A stretch of DNA of 64,000 bases from NCBI GenBank assembly GCA_029264355.1, contig JARIBW010000036.1:92936-156935 (forward strand). Reading direction: 5' to 3'. Position 1 is the first letter of the stretch, and each line of letters starts with the position of its first letter. Positions 33,916 to 50,399 of the stretch are shown here, piece by piece. The notes under the pieces are model-generated. The model saw only the letters and a program-made list of their open reading frames with translations. It had not been told where the DNA came from and did not search any database. Source of the stretch: Collinsella sp. (GTDB taxonomy: Bacteria > Actinomycetota > Coriobacteriia > Coriobacteriales > Coriobacteriaceae). Both the position numbers and the translations under genes were made by a program.

Positions 33916-34596
33916 CTATGCGTCGATGGCCGCCTTGAACCAGGAGGTGAGGCTCGTCGGATGCGTGATGGCGGTGCCCACGACGACGGCCCACGCCCCG
34001 GCGTCGATTGCGGCGCGCGCCTCGGCGGGCGTATGGACATGACCCTCGCAGATGATGGGAAGATCGGGGAACTCGGCCGTGGCCTGGCGCAGGAGCGGCA
34101 GGTCGGGACCCTCGTCGAGCGTGGTGTCGATGGCGGGCTTGTTATGCGAGAGCGTGGTGGAGACCAGGTCGAAGCCGAGTTCCGCGGCATGGCGGATATC
34201 CTCGATGGTCATGCAGTCCGCCATGAGCAGGACGCCCTCATCCTGCAGCGGGCGCACCGTGTCCTCGAGCGTCTTGCCATCGGGACGCGGGCGGTCGGTG
34301 GCGTCGATGGCGACTATGTCGGCGCCGGCGGCGACGCAGGCGCGCGCGTGCCGCAGCGTCGGCGTGATGTAAACGCCCTCATGGCCGTCCTTCCACAGGC
34401 CGATGACCGGGATCTCGACGCGCCCCTTGATGGCGGAGATGTCGGACAGCCCCTGGCAGCGGATGGCCGCGGCGCCGCCGAGCTCGCAAGCGCGGGACAT
34501 GCTCGCCATGATCTCGGGCGTGCGCAGGGGCTCGCCGGGATAGGCCTGTACGCTCACGATGAGCTTGCCCTTGATCGATTCGATGATGGGATGCAT
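33916..34596 (-). CDS. nanE: N-acetylmannosamine-6-phosphate 2-epimerase
   Basis: KLIVSVQAYPGEPLRTPEIMASMSRACELGGAAAIRCQG, PVIGLWKDGHEGVYITPT, ICEGHVHTPAEA. Confidence 0.93.
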   Translation of the reverse strand: MHPIIESIKGKLIVSVQAYPGEPLRTPEIMASMSRACELGGAAAIRCQGLSDISAIKGRVEIPVIGLWKDGHEGVYITPTLRHARACVAAGADIVAIDATDRPRPDGKTLEDTVRPLQDEGVLLMADCMTIEDIRHAAELGFDLVSTTLSHNKPAIDTTLDEGPDLPLLRQATAEFPDLPIICEGHVHTPAEARAAIDAGAWAVVVGTAITHPTSLTSWFKAAIDA

Positions 34597-34674: not shown

Positions 34675-35640
34675 TCACAGGGATGCCAGCAGGTGTTCGG
34701 CGGCGCCGATGAGCGGCGCGCCGCCCTCAAGTTCGCCGATCAAGATCGGGGTCTCGAGGAGGGGGTCGAGGGCCTGAGTCGCATAGCCCTCCGCCACGCT
34801 CGTCCTCCACGTCTCGCTGCGCCAATCGGGGCCCTGGTGGATAACACCGCCGGACAGCACGATGACCTCGGGGTCCAGGATATTGGCAAGCGAGCCCAGG
34901 CTCGCGCCGAGTGCGAAGCCCGCCTCGTGGACCACGGATACCGCGCGCTCATCGCCCTGGCGACAGAGGTCGTTCACGTCGCGGCCGACCGTCGGGCGGG
35001 ACTCGTCGACGCGACCGTGGCGCTCCTCGAACATGCGCCCGATGGAGGTGCCGGAGGCGACGGACTCGAGATGCCCCGAGCGACCGCAGGCGCACGGGAT
35101 CCCCCGCGCGCTCGTCGACTCGATGTGGCCCATATGGCCGGCGGCGCCATGGAAACCGCGCATCACGCGGCCGTCCTCGACGTAAGCGCCGCCGATGCCG
35201 GTGCCGATGCCCAGGCACAGCACGGAATAGCAGTCGCGCCCAACGCCCCAACGGGCCTCCCCCAGGCCGTGGGCCTGAACGTCGCCGACGACGGCGACGG
35301 GCATCCCCAGGGCCTCACGCAGGCGCGGGCCGAGCTCGATGCCGCTCCAGCCGGGCATGATCTCATTGGCATAGGCGATGGAGCCGGTCTTGGGATCGAC
35401 GACGCCGGCGGAGGCCACGCCGACGCCGATCACCTCACGCGCGGGGTCGCTCGCAAGCGCCCCTCGGATCGCGGCCTCGACGCGGGAATACACGGCCTCC
35501 CCGCCCTCCGAGGCATTCGTGGGCGTCTCGGCCGAATAGACGGGGCGCGGGCGTGAACCGTCTGCCGGGTATTCCATGATGGCGCTGGCGATCTTGGTGC
35601 CGCCGATGTCGACGGAGCACACATAGCGCGTATCAGCCAT
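34675..35640 (-). CDS. nanK: ROK family sugar kinase, probable N-acetylmannosamine kinase
   Basis: SVDIGGTKIASAIM, GIGTGIGGAYVEDGRVMRG, GHIESTSARGIPCACGRSGHLES; context next to nanE. Confidence 0.82.
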   Translation of the reverse strand: MADTRYVCSVDIGGTKIASAIMEYPADGSRPRPVYSAETPTNASEGGEAVYSRVEAAIRGALASDPAREVIGVGVASAGVVDPKTGSIAYANEIMPGWSGIELGPRLREALGMPVAVVGDVQAHGLGEARWGVGRDCYSVLCLGIGTGIGGAYVEDGRVMRGFHGAAGHMGHIESTSARGIPCACGRSGHLESVASGTSIGRMFEERHGRVDESRPTVGRDVNDLCRQGDERAVSVVHEAGFALGASLGSLANILDPEVIVLSGGVIHQGPDWRSETWRTSVAEGYATQALDPLLETPILIGELEGGAPLIGAAEHLLASL

Positions 35641-35652
35641 AGTTGCCTCCAA

Positions 35653-36573
35653 TTAGAGCAGACCGCACTCGGCGAGGACGTTTCGGATGGCCTCGACGTT
35701 GGCACCGGAAAGGGCCTTGACCGGGCGAAGCATCTGATTGGACTCGAAGACACCCATGAGCTGCAGGGCCGTCTTGAAAGCACCGACGCCGGCACCGTAG
35801 CCCTGCACGCCGTCCGTGCAATCGAAGATGTGGGAGAGCTCGTTGAGCTTGTCCTGCTCGGCCTTGACCGTGGCCCAGTCTCCGGCTTCGGCGGCCCTCC
35901 ACATGCGGACGTAGCCCTCGGGGTCGACGTTGCCCAAACCGGGGACGGAGCCGTCCGCACCGGAGAGATACGCGCCGTCGACGACGATCTCATGGCCGGT
36001 GAGCAAGCTCATCGGGTGGCCGAGCTTCTCATTCTCCTGGCAAAGGTAGCGGAAGGAGATATCGTCGCCGGAGGAGTCCTTCACGCCGGCGAGCACGCCC
36101 TCGGCCCCGAGCCTGGCCAAAAGCTTCCAGGGGAGCTTGGTGTGGACGCAAACGGGAATGTCATAGGCGAAGATCGGAAGGTCGAGCTCCTCGTGGAGGA
36201 TGCGGAAGTGCTCCTCGACATCGGCCAAGCCGCCGAGGGCATAGAAGGGGCAGGTGGCGACCAGGACGTCTGCGCCGAGCTCCTGAGCGCGGCGGCCATG
36301 CTCGAGCACGCGCTCGGTCTCGGTGTCGATGATGCCGACGAACACGGGCACACGATGGTCGACGATGCGGACCGCCTCGCGAACGACCTCATCGCGACGC
36401 TCGTCGGTGGAGAAGACGACCTCGCCGGATGAGCCGAGGAAGAACAGGCCGTCGACGCCCGCGTCGATCATGCGGTTGATGTTGCGCTCGAAGGAAGCGA
36501 CGTCGAGCTTGCGGTCCTCGGTATCGGGGACGACGACCGGCGGGATGACGCCGCGGTAGATCTTGTTTGCCAT
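35653..36573 (-). CDS. nanA: DHDPS/NAL family aldolase, probable N-acetylneuraminate lyase
   Basis: GVIPPVVVPDTEDRKLD, GLFFLGSSGEVVFSTDER, FAYDIPVCVHTKL, GVLAGVKDSSGD; context nanK/nanE. Confidence 0.75.
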   Translation of the reverse strand: MANKIYRGVIPPVVVPDTEDRKLDVASFERNINRMIDAGVDGLFFLGSSGEVVFSTDERRDEVVREAVRIVDHRVPVFVGIIDTETERVLEHGRRAQELGADVLVATCPFYALGGLADVEEHFRILHEELDLPIFAYDIPVCVHTKLPWKLLARLGAEGVLAGVKDSSGDDISFRYLCQENEKLGHPMSLLTGHEIVVDGAYLSGADGSVPGLGNVDPEGYVRMWRAAEAGDWATVKAEQDKLNELSHIFDCTDGVQGYGAGVGAFKTALQLMGVFESNQMLRPVKALSGANVEAIRNVLAECGLL

Positions 36574-36729: not shown

Positions 36730-37548
36730 CTATTTTCCCAGATTGGGATGGAGCAGCGAGGGTGCGGCCCCGAGCAGCATCTTGGTGTAGGGGTCCCGCG
36801 GGTTCTCGAAGACCTGCTTGGCGGGGCCCTCTTCCATGATCTGCCCATGGTTCATGACCACGATCCTGTCAGAGATATAACGGACCGTCTGGATGTCGTG
36901 GGAGATGAACATCATGGACAGGCCGAGATCCTTCTTGAGATCGGTGAGCAGGTTCAGGATCTGCGCGCGGACGGACACGTCGAGGGCCGAGGTCGGCTCG
37001 TCGGCGATGATGGCGTCGGGCTCGAGGGACATGGCGCGTGCGATGGCCACGCGCTGGCGCTGGCCTCCCGAGAGCTGGCCCGGCATGGCGCGCAGGGCGC
37101 TCTTGGGCAGGCCGACGAGGTCGATGAGCTCCTTGATGCGCCTCTCCTGCTCCGCCGTGCTACCGACCTTATGGACCAGCAACGGGTCGAGAAGCTGATC
37201 GTGCACGATCATGCGGGGATTGAGCGCGGTGGCGGGGTCCTGGAACACGACGGAGACGACGCGGCCCATCTTCTTGCGAAGGTCCGCCGTGCGCTTGGTG
37301 ACGTCCTCGCCCTTGAAGTAGACCTTGCCGGACGTCGGCGACTGAAGGCCGCACATGACGTTGGCGGTGGTGGACTTGCCGCAGCCGGACTCGCCGACGA
37401 TGCCGATGGTCTCGCCGGGCATGAGCTTGATGGTGACGTGATTGACCGCGTGCACCAGATTGGGGTGCAACAGGGAACCGGTGCGCGTCTTGAACGTGAC
37501 GGAAATATCGTCGAGGAAGATGATCGGCTCCTTCCGGGCGTCGCTCAT
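36730..37548 (-). CDS. Dpp/Opp-type ABC transporter ATP-binding protein
   Basis: [62 protein letters not shown]. Confidence 0.92.
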   Translation of the reverse strand: MSDARKEPIIFLDDISVTFKTRTGSLLHPNLVHAVNHVTIKLMPGETIGIVGESGCGKSTTANVMCGLQSPTSGKVYFKGEDVTKRTADLRKKMGRVVSVVFQDPATALNPRMIVHDQLLDPLLVHKVGSTAEQERRIKELIDLVGLPKSALRAMPGQLSGGQRQRVAIARAMSLEPDAIIADEPTSALDVSVRAQILNLLTDLKKDLGLSMMFISHDIQTVRYISDRIVVMNHGQIMEEGPAKQVFENPRDPYTKMLLGAAPSLLHPNLGK

Positions 37549-39603
37549 CTACATCACCTCCTGCTCGGTAACGGCCGCGCGCTCGAGATACGGCGTGAGG
37601 CCGTTCTCCTTGAGGTAGGCGTCGGGAAGCTCGGAGAAACGATGGTTCCTCCCGGGGATCTCCTTGATAACGGGATGGACGTCCAGGCCCAGCGTGGGAT
37701 GGCTCGAACGCGGGGCGAAACGGTCTCCCCTCGGGAAATCCTGCGGCGAGGGCACGGAGCCGGGCACCTGGTGCAGGCGGGAACCGTCCTTGGCGCCCTC
37801 CTCTATCGAGAGCACGGAGCCGAGGAGGCCGCGCGTGTACTCGTGGATCGGGTTGGTGAGCAGCTCGGTGGTGGGAGCCTGCTCGATGACCTGGCCCGCA
37901 TACATGACCGTGATCTCGCTGGCGACCTCGGCGACGAGGGCCAAATCGTGGGAGACGAAGATCATCGCGAAGCCGAGCTTGGCCTGCAGGTCGTTCAGGA
38001 GTTTGATGACCTGCTTCTGGACGGTCACGTCCAGGGCGGTGGTGGGCTCGTCGCAGATGATGAGCTTCGGGTCGCGGGTCAGGGCCATGGCGATGAGCAC
38101 GCGCTGGCGCTGGCCGCCGGAGAGCTCGTGAGGGTAGCTCTCGAGCGTGCGCTTGGGATCGAGGCCGACGAGCTCGAGGAGCTCCTCGGCGGAACGGGTG
38201 CCGCCGCGGCTCGTGAGCTGCTTCATCTGGGCGGAGATGAGCATCGACGGGTTCAGGGAGGACAGGGCGTCCTGATAAACCATGGCGATCTCATGGCCGA
38301 GCAGCTTGCGATGCTCCTCTTTGGTGAGCTTGAGCAAGTCGGTATCGCCAAAGAGGACCTCGCCCGTGACGGTCTCGTTGGGGTCGGTGAGGCTCATGAT
38401 CACCTTGGTGGTGATGGACTTGCCGCAGCCGGACTCGCCCACGAGGGCCATGCACTGACCGGGGCGGACATCGAAGCTGACGTCGTCGACGACTTTGACG
38501 TCGCCGTGGGAGTCGAACCGGATGCCCAGGTCCCTCACGCGGAGCAACGGCTCGACGGACAGGTCGGGCACATGGCGATCGGTGCGCCGCAGCTCCACCT
38601 CGCGCAAGGCGGCCAGACGGCGGTTGAGGCTCTCGGCCTGCTCGGCATAGGCGCGAACGGGATCGGAGGCGAGGATGTCGTCGGCGCGGCGGGCCTCGGC
38701 GTCCTCGCCGTCGCTGGCGACCATGGCGCCGGGCTTGGCCGCCATGGCATCGGTGAGGCCCTCGGAGAGGATGTTCAGCGCAAGGCAGGTGACCATGATG
38801 GCGATGCCCGGGAACAGGGCCTGCCACCAACGGCCGGCCAGCACGCCGCCGCGGGCGTCGGCGAGGATGTTGCCCCAGGTGGCGGTGGGCTCGGTGATGC
38901 CCGCGCCGATGAAGGTCAGGGAGGCCTCGAAGATGATGGCGTCGGCGACGAGCGTCACGGTGAAGACCATGATGGGCGCGATGCAGTTGCGCAGGACATG
39001 CTTGATGAGGATCCACGGGGCCCGGGCGCCGGATACGACGACGGCGCGAACGTAGTCCTCTCCATATTCGGACACGATGTTCGCTCGGACGATGCGGGCG
39101 ATCTGGGGCGTGTACATGAAGCCGATGGAGAAGATGATGGCCGGGACCGAATTGCCCAGGATGAGCACGAGGACGGCGGCCAACGCGATTCCGGGAACGG
39201 ACATGATGATGTCCAGGACGCGCATGATGACCTCGGAGACGCCCTTACGGGCGACCGCGGCGACAGCGCCGACGATCGAGCCGAAGAACAGGGCGAACAG
39301 GGTCGCACCGAAGCCGATCACCAAGGAGTAGCGCCCGCCGTAGAGCATGCGGGAGAGGATGTCGCGTCCCTTGTCGTCGGTTCCGAACAAAAAGCCGTTG
39401 CCGGGAGCCTGGCGGGCGGTGAAGATCCCGAGCGGATCATGCGGGGCGATCAAGGGTGCCAAGATCGCGGTAAGCGCCACCAGGACGAGAAGGATGAGGG
39501 AAATCTTGCCGCTCATCCTCATGTTCTTGAAACCGCCGAACTTCATGCCCTTGGAAGCCGCTTCCTCGAGCTTGGCAGTTTGCCCCTCACGAATCTTAAC
39601 CAT
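37549..39603 (-). CDS. Fused ABC permease (DppC-like) - ATPase (DppD-like), 684 aa
   Basis: N-terminal FGTDDKGRDILSRMLYGGRYSLVIG permease followed in the same frame by [17 protein letters not shown]...[17 protein letters not shown]. Confidence 0.92.
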   Translation of the reverse strand: MVKIREGQTAKLEEAASKGMKFGGFKNMRMSGKISLILLVLVALTAILAPLIAPHDPLGIFTARQAPGNGFLFGTDDKGRDILSRMLYGGRYSLVIGFGATLFALFFGSIVGAVAAVARKGVSEVIMRVLDIIMSVPGIALAAVLVLILGNSVPAIIFSIGFMYTPQIARIVRANIVSEYGEDYVRAVVVSGARAPWILIKHVLRNCIAPIMVFTVTLVADAIIFEASLTFIGAGITEPTATWGNILADARGGVLAGRWWQALFPGIAIMVTCLALNILSEGLTDAMAAKPGAMVASDGEDAEARRADDILASDPVRAYAEQAESLNRRLAALREVELRRTDRHVPDLSVEPLLRVRDLGIRFDSHGDVKVVDDVSFDVRPGQCMALVGESGCGKSITTKVIMSLTDPNETVTGEVLFGDTDLLKLTKEEHRKLLGHEIAMVYQDALSSLNPSMLISAQMKQLTSRGGTRSAEELLELVGLDPKRTLESYPHELSGGQRQRVLIAMALTRDPKLIICDEPTTALDVTVQKQVIKLLNDLQAKLGFAMIFVSHDLALVAEVASEITVMYAGQVIEQAPTTELLTNPIHEYTRGLLGSVLSIEEGAKDGSRLHQVPGSVPSPQDFPRGDRFAPRSSHPTLGLDVHPVIKEIPGRNHRFSELPDAYLKENGLTPYLERAAVTEQEVM

Positions 39604-39606
39604 GGC

Positions 39607-40566
39607 CTACACCGTCCTAATGCGCGGGTTGATGAGCAGGTACAGCATGTCGACCACGATGTTGATGATGACGAAGGCCAGGGCGACGACGATGACGACT
39701 CCCTGGACGAGCATCGTCTCGCCGCCCGTGATGCCGGCGAGAATGGCCGTGCCCATGCCGGGCAGGTTGAAGATGACCTCGATGACGACGGCGCCGCCCA
39801 TGAGGTAGCCGATCTTCAAGCCGAGCGTGGTGACAGGCGTGATCAGCGCGTTGCGCAACACGTTGCGGGCGATGACGACGAACTCGGGCAGACCGCCGCC
39901 GCGCGCGGTGCGCACGTAGTCCTTGTCGAGCTCCTCGACCATGGCCGTGCGCACGATGCGGGTCATCTGACCCGTGAGCGGGAACGCGAGGGCGATGGCC
40001 GGCATGAGCATGCGCGCCATATATCCGCTGGGATTCGCGGTGAAGTGCGGCAGCGGGCCGGACGCGGGCAGGACGCCCATATACGAAGAGAACAGCAAGA
40101 TCAGCAGGACGGCGAACCAGAAGGACGGCGTCGCGATTCCCGCGATGGAGAACACGCGGATCAGCTGATCGGGCCACTTGTCGCGATACAGCGCGGCGAT
40201 GACACCCAACACGAACGAGACCACCGCGCCGATGACGAGGCCGATGAACGTCAACTGCATCGTGACCGGCAGGGCGGCGGCGATACGGTCGACGACCGGC
40301 GTGCGACCGGCGCCGTAGGTGCCGAGGTCGCCGTGGAGCAAACCGCCGATATAGTTGACGTAGCGCTCGGGCAGCGGATCGTTCAGGCCCTGATCCTCCA
40401 TGTACTGATCGATCGCCTCCTGCGAAGCGCCCTCTCCGAGGGCGTTTCGGGCAGGAATACTCGGATCGGTGAACGACATGAGGCCGAACACGAGCAACGT
40501 GACACCCAGTGCCATGATGGGCAACGCGACGAGGCGTCGTCCGATAAGGCGCAAAAGGCTATTCAC
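39607..40566 (-). CDS. Dpp-type ABC permease (DppB-like; GTG start)
   Basis: VNSLLRLIGRRLVALPIMALGVTLLVFGLMS; GTG preceded by GAGGGGGAAGAA. Confidence 0.88.
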   Translation of the reverse strand: MNSLLRLIGRRLVALPIMALGVTLLVFGLMSFTDPSIPARNALGEGASQEAIDQYMEDQGLNDPLPERYVNYIGGLLHGDLGTYGAGRTPVVDRIAAALPVTMQLTFIGLVIGAVVSFVLGVIAALYRDKWPDQLIRVFSIAGIATPSFWFAVLLILLFSSYMGVLPASGPLPHFTANPSGYMARMLMPAIALAFPLTGQMTRIVRTAMVEELDKDYVRTARGGGLPEFVVIARNVLRNALITPVTTLGLKIGYLMGGAVVIEVIFNLPGMGTAILAGITGGETMLVQGVVIVVALAFVIINIVVDMLYLLINPRIRTV

Positions 40567-40595
40567 TTCTTCCCCCTCTACATTCCAAAAGCCTT

Positions 40596-40694: not shown

Positions 40695-42302
40695 TCACTC
40701 GGTGACCGTGGCGCAGTCGATGAAGGACATGCCGGTGGTGCCGATGCCCTTGAAGCCGTCGATGCGGACGCCCTCCCCGTTGGGGGTGTCGCGCCAAGAG
40801 GCGGTCACGGTCTTGACCTGAAGCACCGGGTACAGGACGGCCTGCTCGGCGATCATGTCGAAGCACTCGTTCCACGTCTTCTGCTGCTCATCGCCGGTCT
40901 GGCCGAGAGCGGAGGCCATGAGTTCGGTGAGCTTCTTCCACTCGGCAGACTCGCTCCAGCGGGCGCGGACCTTCATCCAGGCGTTGTCGCCGTACCACCA
41001 GTTCATCAGCAGGTCGGGGTCGGCGCCGAAGCAGGAAGGATCGCCCGGGGCGAGCAGCAGGTCGAAGTCGCCGCCGGCGTCGATGTCGGCATAGGTGTCG
41101 GCGGAGGTGCGGGTCACGATCTCGGCGTCGAAGCCGAGCTCCTTGAGGTCCTGCTGGACCTGGACGGACATGCTCTTGACCTGCTCGTTGTCGGTGGTGA
41201 GAAGCTTGATGGAGCCGCCGGTCACACCGGCCTCCTCCAGGAGCTTCTTGGCCTTCTCGACGTCATGCTCGTAGACGACGGAGGCCTCGTTGTAGTTGGT
41301 ATAGGACTTGGGCAGGTAGCAGGTGGGGGCGGTGGCGAGACCGGCGAAGGCGTTCTCGATCATCTTCTCGTAATCGAGGGCGAACATGACGGCCTGACGG
41401 GCCTTGACGTTATCCCACGGGGCCTTCTTCGTGTTGAAGAGCATGAAGCGGGTGCCGAAACCATCGACGGTGTCCATCTGGCAGCCGGCGTTTTGAAGCT
41501 GGTCCACGGCATCGGCGGTGACCATCTCCATGACGAGCGTGGTGCCCTCCTGCTGCGCCTGGACGCGGGCGGTCGGGTCGACGAGGATGTCGATGTGAAG
41601 CTTCTCGTCCTTGGCGGGGTGATCGCCGTTGTACTCCGGGTTCGGGACCATATCGACCTTGGAGTCGTCGATGACATCGTACATCCAGGGACCGGAGCCG
41701 ACGGGCTTGGCGGTCATGTCCTCCTTGGTGGAGGAGGCGGGAACGACGCGGACGATGGCCAGACGCTCCTTCAGCAGGGAGAAGTTCGGCACGGTCGTCT
41801 TGACGGTGACGGTGGTGTCGTCCTTGGCCTCGACGGAGGCGATGGGGGCGAGCATCGGGATGTAGATGTTGCCCTCGGCGGTGGAGCGCAGGAAGGAGTC
41901 GGCGACGTCATTGGCGGTCACCGGGGTGCCGTCGGAGAATTTGGCGTCCTTGCGCAGGGTGATCTCGTAGGTGGTGTCGTCGACCTGCTTGGGGTCGTCG
42001 GCGGCCAACTCGTTGAAGACGCTGTAATCATGGAAATCGAGACCGTACAGGCCTTCGACGACGTGCCAGTTGGTGCCGCAGGCGAGGGCGGAAGAGGTGC
42101 TGGAGGGATCGAAGTTGGTGGTGGTGTAGGCGGAGCCGGCGGTGATCACGCCGCCGCCCACGGTGCCGTCAGCCGCAGGAGCGGAACCTGCGGGTTTGTC
42201 GCCACCGCCGCAACCGGCAAGACCAAGGCCGGCGACGGCGGCGGCACCGCCGGCAAGACCGAGGAAGGAGCGGCGGGACACGCCCGTGTTCAGAAGATCG
42301 CG
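40695..42302 (-). CDS. SBP_bac_5 family substrate-binding lipoprotein (Dpp/Sat-like)
   Basis: SRRSFLGLAGGAAAVAGLGLAGCGGG lipobox; RKDAKFSDGTPVTANDVADSFL. Confidence 0.88.
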   Translation of the reverse strand, partial: RDLLNTGVSRRSFLGLAGGAAAVAGLGLAGCGGGDKPAGSAPAADGTVGGGVITAGSAYTTTNFDPSSTSSALACGTNWHVVEGLYGLDFHDYSVFNELAADDPKQVDDTTYEITLRKDAKFSDGTPVTANDVADSFLRSTAEGNIYIPMLAPIASVEAKDDTTVTVKTTVPNFSLLKERLAIVRVVPASSTKEDMTAKPVGSGPWMYDVIDDSKVDMVPNPEYNGDHPAKDEKLHIDILVDPTARVQAQQEGTTLVMEMVTADAVDQLQNAGCQMDTVDGFGTRFMLFNTKKAPWDNVKARQAVMFALDYEKMIENAFAGLATAPTCYLPKSYTNYNEASVVYEHDVEKAKKLLEEAGVTGGSIKLLTTDNEQVKSMSVQVQQDLKELGFDAEIVTRTSADTYADIDAGGDFDLLLAPGDPSCFGADPDLLMNWWYGDNAWMKVRARWSESAEWKKLTELMASALGQTGDEQQKTWNECFDMIAEQAVLYPVLQVKTVTASWRDTPNGEGVRIDGFKGIGTTGMSFIDCATVTE

Positions 42303-42527
42303 CATGGGAACTCCAATCAAGCGCTCTGCGCTGCGGCCCGGCAGCGCACACTACAGACTCCTTCAGCCTAATAGCCCATCAGATTTTTTCGAGGAGTCCG
42401 TCGATGAACGGTCGTCCTTCCGCCCAGGCGGGAAAACGACCGCTTGCGGGATTGTTGACATTTGTGCGGAATGGTATTAAAGCAGGTACCAGTTTGCCCG
42501 AAATCTGCTTTAGCGCCATAAAGTTCC

Positions 42528-42556
42528 CTGGTATTTACCAGTTTACACTGGTATTA
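42528..42556. promoter_or_regulatory. Overlapping operator-like palindromes CTGGTATTTACCAGTTTACACTGGTATTA upstream of the nan/sat operon
   Basis: CTGGTA-TT-TACCAG and TACCAGT-TTAC-ACTGGTA, both with perfect arms. Confidence 0.65.
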
Positions 42557-42605
42557 AAATAATGCTCAATATATATACATAGTATTGTCTATTTGATACC
42601 ACTTG

Positions 42606-44636
42606 TCAGTCTTCGGCGGAATCGCGCTCGGCATGACGGTCCCCGAGAGCGCGAAGCGATTCGAACACCGCACGGGCCACCTCGGCAGGCACACCGGGGA
42701 CCTCGGCGATCTCGGCCTCCGATGCGGCGCGAAGACGCTTCATGGAACCGAATCGCCTCATGATCGCCTTCTTCCGCGTGGGGCCGACGCCGGGGACCTC
42801 ATCCAGGACGGACACGGTCATCGCCTTGCCGCGCAGCTCGCGATGGAAGGTGATGGCGAAGCGGTGGCTTTCATCGCGGACCTGCTTGATGAGATACAGC
42901 GAAGCCGATCCGCTGGGCAGGACGATCGGCGTATCGTCCCAGGGGACGAACACCTCCTCATCGGCCTTGGCGAGGCCGCAGACCGGGATGTCGAGCCCGA
43001 GCTCCTCGAGCTGCCTCATCGCCGCGGTGAGCTGGGGGCGCCCGCCATCGACCACCAGCAGGTCGGGCTTGCTACCGAACCGTTCATCGGCCATGCGCTC
43101 GGGCGCGTAGCGGCGGCCGAGGACCTCGGACATGGAGACGAAGTCGTTGGCCTCGTCCAGCTCCGCGCGGATCTTGAAGCGGCGGTATTGGCTTTTGTCC
43201 GGCTTGCCGTTCGTGAATACGACCATGGAGGCGACCGTGAAGGCGCCATGCAGGGTCGAGATGTCGAAACACTCGATGCGCATCGGCGGCGCATCCAGGG
43301 CCAAGGCGCTCTCAAGCTGCAAAAGGGCCTGATTGGTGCGGTCGTCCGAATAACCCGTGCGCATCATGTAGCGCATGAGGGCATGGCGGGCGTTGCGCTC
43401 GGCCATCTGCAGCAAACGGCGCTTCTCGCCGCGCTGTGGACGGTGCAGGCGGCACACGCGGCCCCTCTTGCCCGCCAGCCACTCCCCCACCACGTCCGCG
43501 TCCGGCAACTCGACGGCCAGGTCGACCTCGTGGGGAACGTCGGCCGTTTCATCGTAGTAGCGCTTGACGAAGCCGGATGCGAGCTCGACCTCATCGACGT
43601 CGAATCCCTTGTCCAAAATGAACTCGCAGGTTCTCTGCACGCGCCCCTCGCGCACGACGAACACGCAGGCGCCGGCGATCGTCTCCTCGCGGTAGAAACC
43701 GATGAGGTCCAAATCCACACTCGTGGGGAATACGACCTGCTGGCGGTCATCGAGCCCGTCGATGACCTCAAGGCGGCGCTTGATGCGGCCCGCACGTTCG
43801 AAATCGAGGTCGGCGGCCGCCTCGGCCATATCGGCCTTGAGCTCATCGACGAGCTCGCGGCGCTGCCCGGACAGGAACCTCTCGACACGGCGCACGTTCA
43901 CGGCATACTCTTCGCGGCCGACCATGCCGGCGCACACGCCGGGCCCGCGCCCGACATGGTAGTCAAAACACGGACGTCCCTGATTCGAGCAGATGAGCTC
44001 GATGACATCGGCATCGTCCGGGCGTTTCTCGAGCAGCCGTCGGACGCGCTTCCACTCGGCGCACGAGGCCGTGCAGATCGGGCAGACCTTGCGGAGCGTG
44101 TCGATGGTCTCGCGGGCGGCGCGACTGTCCGTGTACGGGCCGTAGTAGCGCGTGTCGGGACGATGCTTTTCACGCGTGTACTTGATGGCGGGGAAAACAT
44201 CGCCGCGCGTGATGGCGATATAGGGGTAGGACTTGTCGTCCTTGTAGTCGACATTGAAATACGGATGGTACTGGGCGATGAGCTCGCGCTCGAGGACGAG
44301 CGCCTCGTGCTCGCTTTCGACGACGATGTAATCGAAGCTCGCGACGATCTGCATCATGAGCGGGATCTTCGCGCGATCGTCGGTCAAAGTGACGTATTGG
44401 CGCAGGCGGGCTCGCAGGTTCTTGGCCTTGCCCACGTAGACGACCTCTCCCGCGGCATCCTTCCACAGGTAGCAACCGGGGTCGTCGGGCACCTCGGCCA
44501 CCTGTTCGACGAGACTCGGGGCATGGTCGCCCCCCTGGGCGCGCACATGCTCGGAGGCGGCGCTCACGGAAAAGGGCGCGAGGGGCATGGAGCGAGACGG
44601 CGACGTATCGCCAGACGATCGGCCTAGCATGTGCAC
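42606..44636 (-). CDS. uvrC: Excinuclease ABC subunit C
   Basis: VPDDPGCYLWKDAAGEVVYVGKAKNLRARLRQY; C-terminal helix-hairpin-helix region VLDEVPGVGPTRKKAIMRRFGS. Confidence 0.96.
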   Translation of the reverse strand: MHMLGRSSGDTSPSRSMPLAPFSVSAASEHVRAQGGDHAPSLVEQVAEVPDDPGCYLWKDAAGEVVYVGKAKNLRARLRQYVTLTDDRAKIPLMMQIVASFDYIVVESEHEALVLERELIAQYHPYFNVDYKDDKSYPYIAITRGDVFPAIKYTREKHRPDTRYYGPYTDSRAARETIDTLRKVCPICTASCAEWKRVRRLLEKRPDDADVIELICSNQGRPCFDYHVGRGPGVCAGMVGREEYAVNVRRVERFLSGQRRELVDELKADMAEAAADLDFERAGRIKRRLEVIDGLDDRQQVVFPTSVDLDLIGFYREETIAGACVFVVREGRVQRTCEFILDKGFDVDEVELASGFVKRYYDETADVPHEVDLAVELPDADVVGEWLAGKRGRVCRLHRPQRGEKRRLLQMAERNARHALMRYMMRTGYSDDRTNQALLQLESALALDAPPMRIECFDISTLHGAFTVASMVVFTNGKPDKSQYRRFKIRAELDEANDFVSMSEVLGRRYAPERMADERFGSKPDLLVVDGGRPQLTAAMRQLEELGLDIPVCGLAKADEEVFVPWDDTPIVLPSGSASLYLIKQVRDESHRFAITFHRELRGKAMTVSVLDEVPGVGPTRKKAIMRRFGSMKRLRAASEAEIAEVPGVPAEVARAVFESLRALGDRHAERDSAED

Positions 44637-49112: not shown

Positions 49113-50294
49113 CTACACCGGCGAGCCGCCGCCGACATAGTTGCCGCCGGCATAGAGGGATGCGACCACGACGCCGACACCGGGCATCGAGGCGTGGACA
49201 TACTGCCCCCCGCCGATGTAGATGCCGACGTGGTAAATGGAGCTCGTGGAGCCACCGTTACCCCAGAACACCAGGTCACCGGGCTTGAGGCTGCCGATGT
49301 TATACACCAGATGCCCCTTTGAGCGAACCGAGTTGAACTGGCCCTGAGCGGTACGGGGAAGACCATAGCCGGCCTGGGCGTAGGAATAGCTCGTGAGTCC
49401 GGAGCAGTCGAAGGCATTGGGGCCGGATGCAGCCCACACATAGGGCTTGCCGACCTGGGCGAGGGCGACATCGACGACGCTGGCGGGCGCATTACCGGAG
49501 TTGGTGTTGCCGTTGTTGTTGGGCTTCTCCGCGGGCTTGCTGGGCTTATTGTTGTTCTCCGGCCGCTGCTGTTGCCCTTGCTGCTGCTGTTCTTGCTGTT
49601 GCTGCTGTTGCTGCTGCTGTTGCTGCTGTTGCTGAAGCGCTTCCTGGCGAGCCGCCTCCTCGGCGGCCTTGCGGGCCGCTTCCTCGGCGAGCTGGTCCTT
49701 GAGCTGCGTATCGAGGTTGTTGTAGAACGACTGCTGCTGGCTGACCTTCGAGCTGACCTCGGCCGTCTTGGACTCCTGCTCGGAAACGAGCTCCTTCTGG
49801 CGCGCCTCCTGCTCGCCGAGCTCGACCTGCTTCTGCTCGAGTTCGGCCATATCCTGCTTCACCTTGGCGATGACCTGGGCATCGGCATCGGCGACCTTAT
49901 TCGCATAGAACGTGCGCGAGAAGAGGTCGGCAAAGTCCGTCGAGCCCAAGACGATGGAGAGCAGATTCGCGCCGCCCTGCTTATAGGTGGTGGACACGCG
50001 CTGCGCGATGATCTCCTGACCCTCGGCGACCTCCGCCTGCTTCTTCTCGATATCGGCGCGGGTCTGCTCGATCTGCCCCTGAACGGTGGCAAGGTCATCC
50101 TTCACCGTGGCGAGCTGGCTGCTGGCGAGCTCGAGCTCCATGGTGTAGGTCTGGAGAGTTGCGTATGCGTCGTTGACGCGCTGCTGGAGCACGTCGGTCG
50201 GCTCCGCGAATGCGACCGCGGGAACTCCGGAAACCGAGAGCGTCGCGGAAAGTAGGCAAGCCGTGGCGATGACTTGGGTGCGTTTGAACTTCAT
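49113..50294 (-). CDS. Secreted NlpC/P60 peptidase with N-terminal coiled coil and polyQ linker
   Basis: Signal peptide MKFKRTQVIATACLLSATLSVSGVPAVAFAE; coiled coil; NAFDCSGLTSYSYAQAG...GSLKPGDLVFWG...YHVGIYIGGGQYVHA. Confidence 0.92.
   Translation of the reverse strand: MKFKRTQVIATACLLSATLSVSGVPAVAFAEPTDVLQQRVNDAYATLQTYTMELELASSQLATVKDDLATVQGQIEQTRADIEKKQAEVAEGQEIIAQRVSTTYKQGGANLLSIVLGSTDFADLFSRTFYANKVADADAQVIAKVKQDMAELEQKQVELGEQEARQKELVSEQESKTAEVSSKVSQQQSFYNNLDTQLKDQLAEEAARKAAEEAARQEALQQQQQQQQQQQQQQEQQQQGQQQRPENNNKPSKPAEKPNNNGNTNSGNAPASVVDVALAQVGKPYVWAASGPNAFDCSGLTSYSYAQAGYGLPRTAQGQFNSVRSKGHLVYNIGSLKPGDLVFWGNGGSTSSIYHVGIYIGGGQYVHASMPGVGVVVASLYAGGNYVGGGSPV
49566..49634 (-). repeat. CTG/TTG (Gln codon) trinucleotide tract
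   Basis: Encodes QQQQQQQQQQQQQQ-E-QQQQ-G-QQQ in the NlpC/P60 linker. Confidence 0.9.
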
Positions 50295-50399
50295 GTCACG
50301 TCCTAACGTGTTCGGGTGCATCAAGGATACCAACCCCGACCTGTGAGCACCACCCAAAGCCGCCGTGCGGCAGAATAGCTTCACAGGAACAGGCGGGGC

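Follow-up and report, generated by a model that had tools for sequence, protein, structure and literature searches.

The window analysed here, the whole 64-kb stretch C12:92936-156935, comes from a Collinsella genome whose closest named relative is Collinsella intestinalis DSM 13280 (the solute-binding proteins of the two are 98% identical). On its minus strand lies a nan/sat operon encoding a solute-binding protein, an ABC transporter, nanA, nanK and nanE, preceded by an array of short repeated half-sites. The array is located in the 300 bp that separate uvrC, ending at 42606, from the solute-binding protein, whose start codon is at 42305; the GC content of this gap is 0.48 vs 0.64 for the window. 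The solute-binding protein is a Tat-type lipoprotein, its signal having been judged by eye. The features of the locus are as follows:

33916-34596, minus strand: nanE (PF04131)
34675-35637, minus strand: nanK, a ROK kinase (PF00480)
35653-36573, minus strand: nanA (PF00701)
36730-37548, minus strand: ATPase of the ABC transporter
37549-39603, minus strand: permease-ATPase fusion
39607-40575, minus strand: ABC permease, within the ABC block 36730-40575
40695-42305, minus strand: gene heading the operon, for a solute-binding protein of the SBP_bac_5 family (PF00496, 6e-67)
42306-42605, minus strand: regulatory intergenic stretch that separates uvrC from the nan/sat operon
42403-42451: GATGAACGGTCG (plus strand, at 42403) and GCGGTCGTTTTCCCG (minus strand), inverted, resembling GTGAACGGTCGnTTTT of the aga promoters; second shared element
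42472-42491: TGGTATTAAAGCAGGTACCA, widely spaced pair of half-sites (42472-42476 and 42487-42491, both with 5/5 bases kept in C. intestinalis)
42478-42512: inverted pair of TAAAGCAG (42478-42485) and CTGCTTTA (42505-42512)
42528-42541: CTGGTATTTACCAG, candidate operator of the AgaR2/NagR type, with perfect 5-bp arms around N4
42536-42553: TACCAGTTTACACTGGTA, outward-facing pair overlapping the CTGGTATTTACCAG candidate operator
42549-42553, plus strand: half-site 2 (TGGTA), 5/5 bases kept in C. intestinalis
42570-42582, minus strand: putative -10 region CTATGTATATATA, of which CTATGTATATA is kept in C. intestinalis
42597-42601, minus strand: half-site 1 (TGGTA on this strand), preceding the candidate -10 by some 18 bp; 5/5 bases kept in C. 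intestinalis

Elsewhere in the window, positions 49113-50384 encode a secreted protein (NlpC/P60-like by eye) in which some 14 consecutive glutamines lead into more Q-rich sequence.

The six strings on which a first-pass annotation had based its operator array are each present exactly where it placed them, including GATACCA at 42595-42601. The two arms of CTGGTATTTACCAG occupy 42529-42533 and 42536-42540. Six TGGTA/TACCA half-sites are found inside 130 bp of the nan gap. In the entire 300-bp gap the six copies compare with 0.57 expected, a number reached by none of 5000 dinucleotide shuffles; for the longer form TGGTAT/ATACCA, four copies are seen vs 0.17 expected, again matched by 0 of 5000 shuffles. 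No 130-bp stretch in the rest of the 64-kb window holds more than two half-sites, and in the whole 1.56-Mb genome the arrangement TGGTA-NN-TACCA is found only in the nan array and inside a PTS gene of the aga operon on contig C40. A chance cluster, or a set of promoter elements not acting as operators (with TGGTATTA as an extended -10), is most improbable as an explanation: the gap is indeed AT-richer than the genome and TGGTATTAA is similar to an extended -10, but composition-preserving shuffles never gave six copies, the half-sites are conserved and they lie on both strands. As regards the promoter itself, an automatic scan gives a call different from the candidate -10 listed above, namely CTGACA-17-AATACT at 42609-42581 on the minus strand.

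The half-sites stand out from their surroundings in the comparison with C. intestinalis: 28 of their 30 positions are identical, vs 78/116 for the remainder of 42460-42605 (Fisher P = 0.002). The view of the array as an operator region, denser than chance would produce, is upheld by both the shuffles and this above-background conservation. All but one of the six half-sites are kept without change; the exception, 42536-42540, is the one common to the overlapping palindromes CTGGTATTTACCAG and TACCAGTTTACACTGGTA. The TACCAGTTTACACTGGTA pair is broken in C. intestinalis and is probably incidental. The mutually exclusive binding to overlapping palindromes that had been suggested is left unsupported by this loss of the shared half-site: the overlap is present as letters, but it is not kept even in the nearest species. 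The inverted pair TAAAGCAG/CTGCTTTA has likewise decayed, only TAAAG/CTTTA remaining. In the candidate operator one arm is gone, ACTGGT having become ACCAGT, with an asymmetric remnant scoring 5.1 on the operator matrix described below, and the three central sites read ACCAG(N5)ACCAG(N5)ACCAG, that is, exact 10-bp steps.

Neither a GntR nor an RpiR match lies in the window (C12:92936-156935), in which the annotation had noted no regulator gene. The GntR helix-turn-helix model gives 12 matches in the genome, all of them outside the window, one with an FCD domain and six with a UTRA domain; by reading, one of the others is short and YtrA-like and the rest are DeoR- or MntR-like. The sole FCD protein is encoded on contig C42 between a dipeptidase-like gene and genes for a dimethylargininase and an amino-acid (arginine/ornithine) antiporter (by reading), and there are no TGGTA half-site pairs near this arginine-type locus. 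The sole RpiR gene, on C53, adjoins two class II aldolases and a PTS (by reading); it is unlinked to nan, and its 12-kb contig has no close TGGTA pair. Both genes, present but unlinked and free of the motif, were rejected as the regulator.

An RpiR-type NanR sensing ManNAc-6-P has a precedent in Streptococcus pneumoniae, where such a protein controls the nan genes and senses this compound (PMC12713135); in Clostridium perfringens, too, nan promoters are bound by a NanR (PMC4509764). Given the position and surroundings of the C53 gene, it is scarcely to be expected here.

The case of a Neu5Ac-responsive FadR/FCD NanR of the E. coli type, reading GGTATA-like repeats, is similar. The GGTATA repeats recognized by E. 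coli NanR lie 8-9 bp apart. The nan array of Collinsella instead has GGTATT, GGTATC and GGTACC, inverted or spaced by 10-12 bp, and tandem GGTATA is absent from it. The likeness lies in the repeated GGTAT half-sites upstream of sialic-acid genes, GGTAT being contained in TGGTAT, and E. coli NanR binds its (GGTATA)3 operator as three cooperating dimers (PMC8012715); the differences are the FadR/FCD protein, the spacing, the mixture of inverted and direct sites in Collinsella and the lack of a matching regulator gene. In other Actinobacteria, FCD GntR proteins do adjoin the same operon. NanR of Corynebacterium and Bifidobacterium represents a GntR control of a similar ABC-nanAKE operon, but with the regulator adjacent. 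Among the nan operons of Actinomycetes, Corynebacterium and Microbacterium with an adjacent GntR gene, the three regulators tested are all FCD proteins, and several of the gaps show TCAGACATCTGA or similar repeats, not TGGTA arrays. Furthermore, a survey found that nan clusters of Actinomycetia nearly always carry a FadR-type regulator and that those of Coriobacteriia lack one, perhaps being regulated otherwise (PMC8754123). With the only FCD protein of the genome in an arginine-type locus devoid of such sites, and with actinobacterial FCD operators looking unlike TGGTA arrays, this alternative is very improbable. The earlier proposal of a GntR-like NanR hence stands in part: a member of the GntR superfamily is the best candidate, but not a NanR of the E. 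coli type, the sole FCD gene being unlinked and motif-free. As a separate observation, the same operon in six loci of other Actinobacteria (L049, L079, L080, L083-L085) is accompanied by a divergent GntR gene, FCD in those tested, and by a repeat similar to TCAGACATCTGA or TGTCGGACAAA, which may be the operator of that NanR group.

The GntR protein in question is encoded on contig C40 (C40:33688-34419, minus strand), inside an amino-sugar uptake operon with a mannose-family PTS on one side of it and agaS-nagA on the other (genes named by reading). It is a HutC/UTRA regulator (PF00392 and PF07702 both above cut-off) and matches DasR (3e-32) and YvoA/NagR (3e-30). Of the 16 related genomes searched, 13 encode an orthologue, with 58-96% identity. 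The residues with which NagR reads bases, Arg38, Arg48 and Gly69, are all kept by the C40 protein as well as by 14 orthologous sequences, and so are most of the phosphosugar contacts; 10 of the 15 contacts of NagR to amino-sugar-6-phosphate are identical in the C40 protein, the differing positions being Ser165, Ile166, Ile209, Ala224 and Tyr228 (for the roles of these residues see PMC4333415). Among the six UTRA GntR proteins of the genome, the C40 protein is alone in having the three base-reading residues together with most of the phosphosugar contacts. Four UTRA GntR genes are clustered on C29 (L101:7893-14374) with a SIS-domain-like gene and a mannose-family PTS, before which conserved TGGTATTAAAAA sites are found.

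The operator of the C40 regulator, [CG]TGGTTAYWACCA[CG], was deduced from the regulator's own promoters in relatives, without the nan window. The palindrome GTGGTTACTACCAG, or a close variant, lies directly upstream of the PTS operon in the genome under study and in 14 related loci; a second copy upstream of agaS reads CTGGTTATAACCAG in this genome and in two related loci (L186, L187), with variants in two others (L188, L190), so that at least four relatives have it. A conserved TTGACG/TATACT-like block is also seen, by eye, upstream of the aga operator. From 12 sites a symmetric matrix was built, the agaS copy being left out, and 217 kb of its own DNA, out of the 1.56-Mb genome, were scanned. 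The two top scores belong to its agaS site (22.9 bits) and its PTS site (21.2); the nan site 42528-42541 is third in the 217 kb and first in the window with 16.3 bits, followed by a coding match (15.3). An even palindrome of the form TGGT-N4-ACCA is present at 42528-42541, upstream of the target operon, and the generic TGGTnnnACCA hint of the first reading pointed in the right direction (HutC/UTRA) but with the wrong spacing. The centre of the nan palindrome, ATTT, is absent among the centres of the C40 regulator's own operators.

As a control, 1000 matrices were generated by permuting half-columns and swapping complementary letters; they rank the nan gap first in 2.1% of cases (0.021). For four of 15 relatives (L022, L024, L025 and L029) the top match within the entire 17.6-kb locus is located in the nan promoter, while permuted matrices place it there in a mean of 0.86 of the 15 loci and in at least four in 2.8% (P = 0.028). 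The motif link is thus statistically moderate, with P of about 0.02-0.03 for each test, the two not being fully independent. Like the sites and their enrichment, the conserved operator of the C40 regulator and its match at nan are direct results of computation.

The two promoters also have the isolated half-sites in common. Outside the palindrome, ten promoters upstream of the aga operon contain 17 copies of TGGTAT vs 1.5 expected (0 of 1000 shuffle sets) and 24 of TGGTA vs 6.1 expected (no shuffle set), so that palindrome and half-sites alike are common to nan and aga promoters. Since each half-site corresponds to an arm of the operator, the simplest reading is that the same protein reads both. 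In the nan promoters of relatives, the enrichment of TGGTAT is clear in L019, L021, L022, L024 and L027 and weak in L023, L029 and L092; the shuffle test found none in L020, L025, L026, L028 and L030-L032.

A different functional unit may be considered, namely tandem TGGTAT half-sites about one helical turn apart (10-12 bp) rather than the palindrome, read by another regulator (for example a NanR-style GntR or a DeoR-, AraC- or OmpR-type protein) that would also act on the promoters of aga, sialidase and other mucin-sugar genes, with the AgaR2-like match being secondary in this species. Several observations point that way. Direct repeats of CTGGTAT 11-12 bp apart occur three times in L022 and L027 and twice in L023 and L092, the latter two without a good palindrome. 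Moreover, half-sites survive where the palindrome is gone, as in the 10-bp ACCAG series of C. intestinalis, and TGGTATTA is found upstream of the C29 PTS operon too, where it is kept in C. intestinalis. A similar cluster on C31 (C31:5943-6070, locus L124) has six half-sites with neighbour steps of 11, 12 and 10 bp, upstream of the start of a secreted protein at the contig end. On the other hand, no such regulator was found next to the array or to nan operons of Coriobacteriia (no DeoR, RpiR or C40-type gene adjoins nan in the locus flanks examined), and a half-site that is an arm of the AgaR2-like operator makes a separate protein unnecessary. An exact search for CTGGTAT(N3-6)CTGGTAT in 45 genomes of the genus returned one match, near an unrelated gene, so this spacing is uncommon in the sample. 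Across the genome under study, direct TGGTA pairs are rarer than a reversed control and most matches are coding, the informative ones being those of the nan window and C31. We regard this tandem-site explanation as possible, though rather unlikely.

Beside the half-sites, nan and aga promoters have in common a GTGAACGGTCGnTTTT(n)CCG element at about -145 to -156 (also at L094:12002), which ranks first or second of the locus in the nan promoters of L019, L020, L024 and L029. L020 keeps the C40 regulator (88%) but its nan promoter is without TGGTA, and yet has this element.

The gene of a large LPXTG-type sialidase is cut by the end of contig C15 (L123). It may form, with the secreted-protein start on C31, a single gene split by an assembly gap; the contig ends of C31 and C15 do not overlap, and a search of this genome for the missing N-terminal part of the sialidase did not find it. 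Candidate sites that resemble those of nan are seen in the sialidase promoters of two relatives, L148 (upstream of 3741; ATACCAGTT and a GCGAACGGTATGG element) and L149 (upstream of 8731; AAACTGGTATATCC...AAACCAGTTT).

One of the nearest known systems is that of AgaR2 of Streptococcus suis. To our knowledge, the use of tandem half-sites has not been described for AgaR2 or NagR, and we know of no nan operon in the NagR or DasR regulons. AgaR2, a GntR/HutC repressor of GalNAc use, binds TTGTGGTTATAACCAGTT in EMSA (PMC4694137). This site has the core deduced above for the C40 regulator; in the form GTGGTTATAACCAG it recurs without change in a Collinsella aga operator (L217), and it differs by one base from the CTGGTTATAACCAG of the present genome, L186 and L187. 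The C40 regulator belongs to the same HutC subfamily and is similarly grouped with PTS, agaS and nagA-type genes; however, the reported AgaR2 targets include no sialic-acid genes, nor are half-site arrays described (PMC4694137). With NagR/YvoA of Bacillus subtilis and DasR of Streptomyces, which bind dre sites (PMC4333415, PMC4918961), the TGGT-N4-ACCA geometry is shared, whereas the centre of the palindrome crystallised with NagR is CTAG vs TATA, TACT or ATTT in Collinsella, and NagR Tyr228 is replaced by Ala in the C40 protein.

Taken as a whole, the best candidate for the protein binding the nan array is the C40 repressor of the GntR/HutC AgaR2/NagR/DasR kind, which would release nan and aga together, a reading to which we give slightly better than even credence. 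Against it weigh the arm missing in C. intestinalis (although native B. subtilis dre sites are asymmetric as well, PMC4333415), the L020 nan promoter devoid of TGGTA, the want of a good palindrome in L023 and L092, the ATTT centre, the tandem half-sites and the moderate P values. What follows on binding and repression, on the effector and the start site, and on what the half-sites do is inferred. The array would be the operator region of the Collinsella nan/sat operon, with CTGGTATTTACCAG as the core bound by the C40 repressor. This CTGGT-N4-ACCAG operator would lie downstream of a promoter near 42570-42609, and without inducer a dimer of the repressor would occupy the palindrome and block transcription starting just upstream (about 42570). 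The flanking TGGTAT half-sites probably aid by raising the local occupancy of the repressor. When amino-sugar phosphates accumulate, also from the breakdown of sialic acid through NanE, the repressor would be released and the sialic-acid and aga operons would be induced jointly.

A broader and more doubtful version would make of these elements a composite mucin-sugar switch, in which a HutC-type amino-sugar repressor acts through a dense same-face half-site array and one palindrome over nan, sialidase and the GalNAc PTS, with GTGAACGGTCG as a second common element. As part of that same tentative version, its assembly would be a NanR-like multi-dimer attained by a different GntR subfamily.

No literature on the regulation of nan in Collinsella was found among open-access papers; an array of this sort through which an AgaR2/NagR-type protein controls nan would extend a known type of regulation. 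For nan control in Coriobacteriia, the analysis yields one candidate regulator, an exact 14-bp site and the promoters of about ten species on which the proposal bears. If the proposal is true, the consumption of several mucin sugars is coordinated by a single amino-sugar repressor in a genus that is common in the gut.
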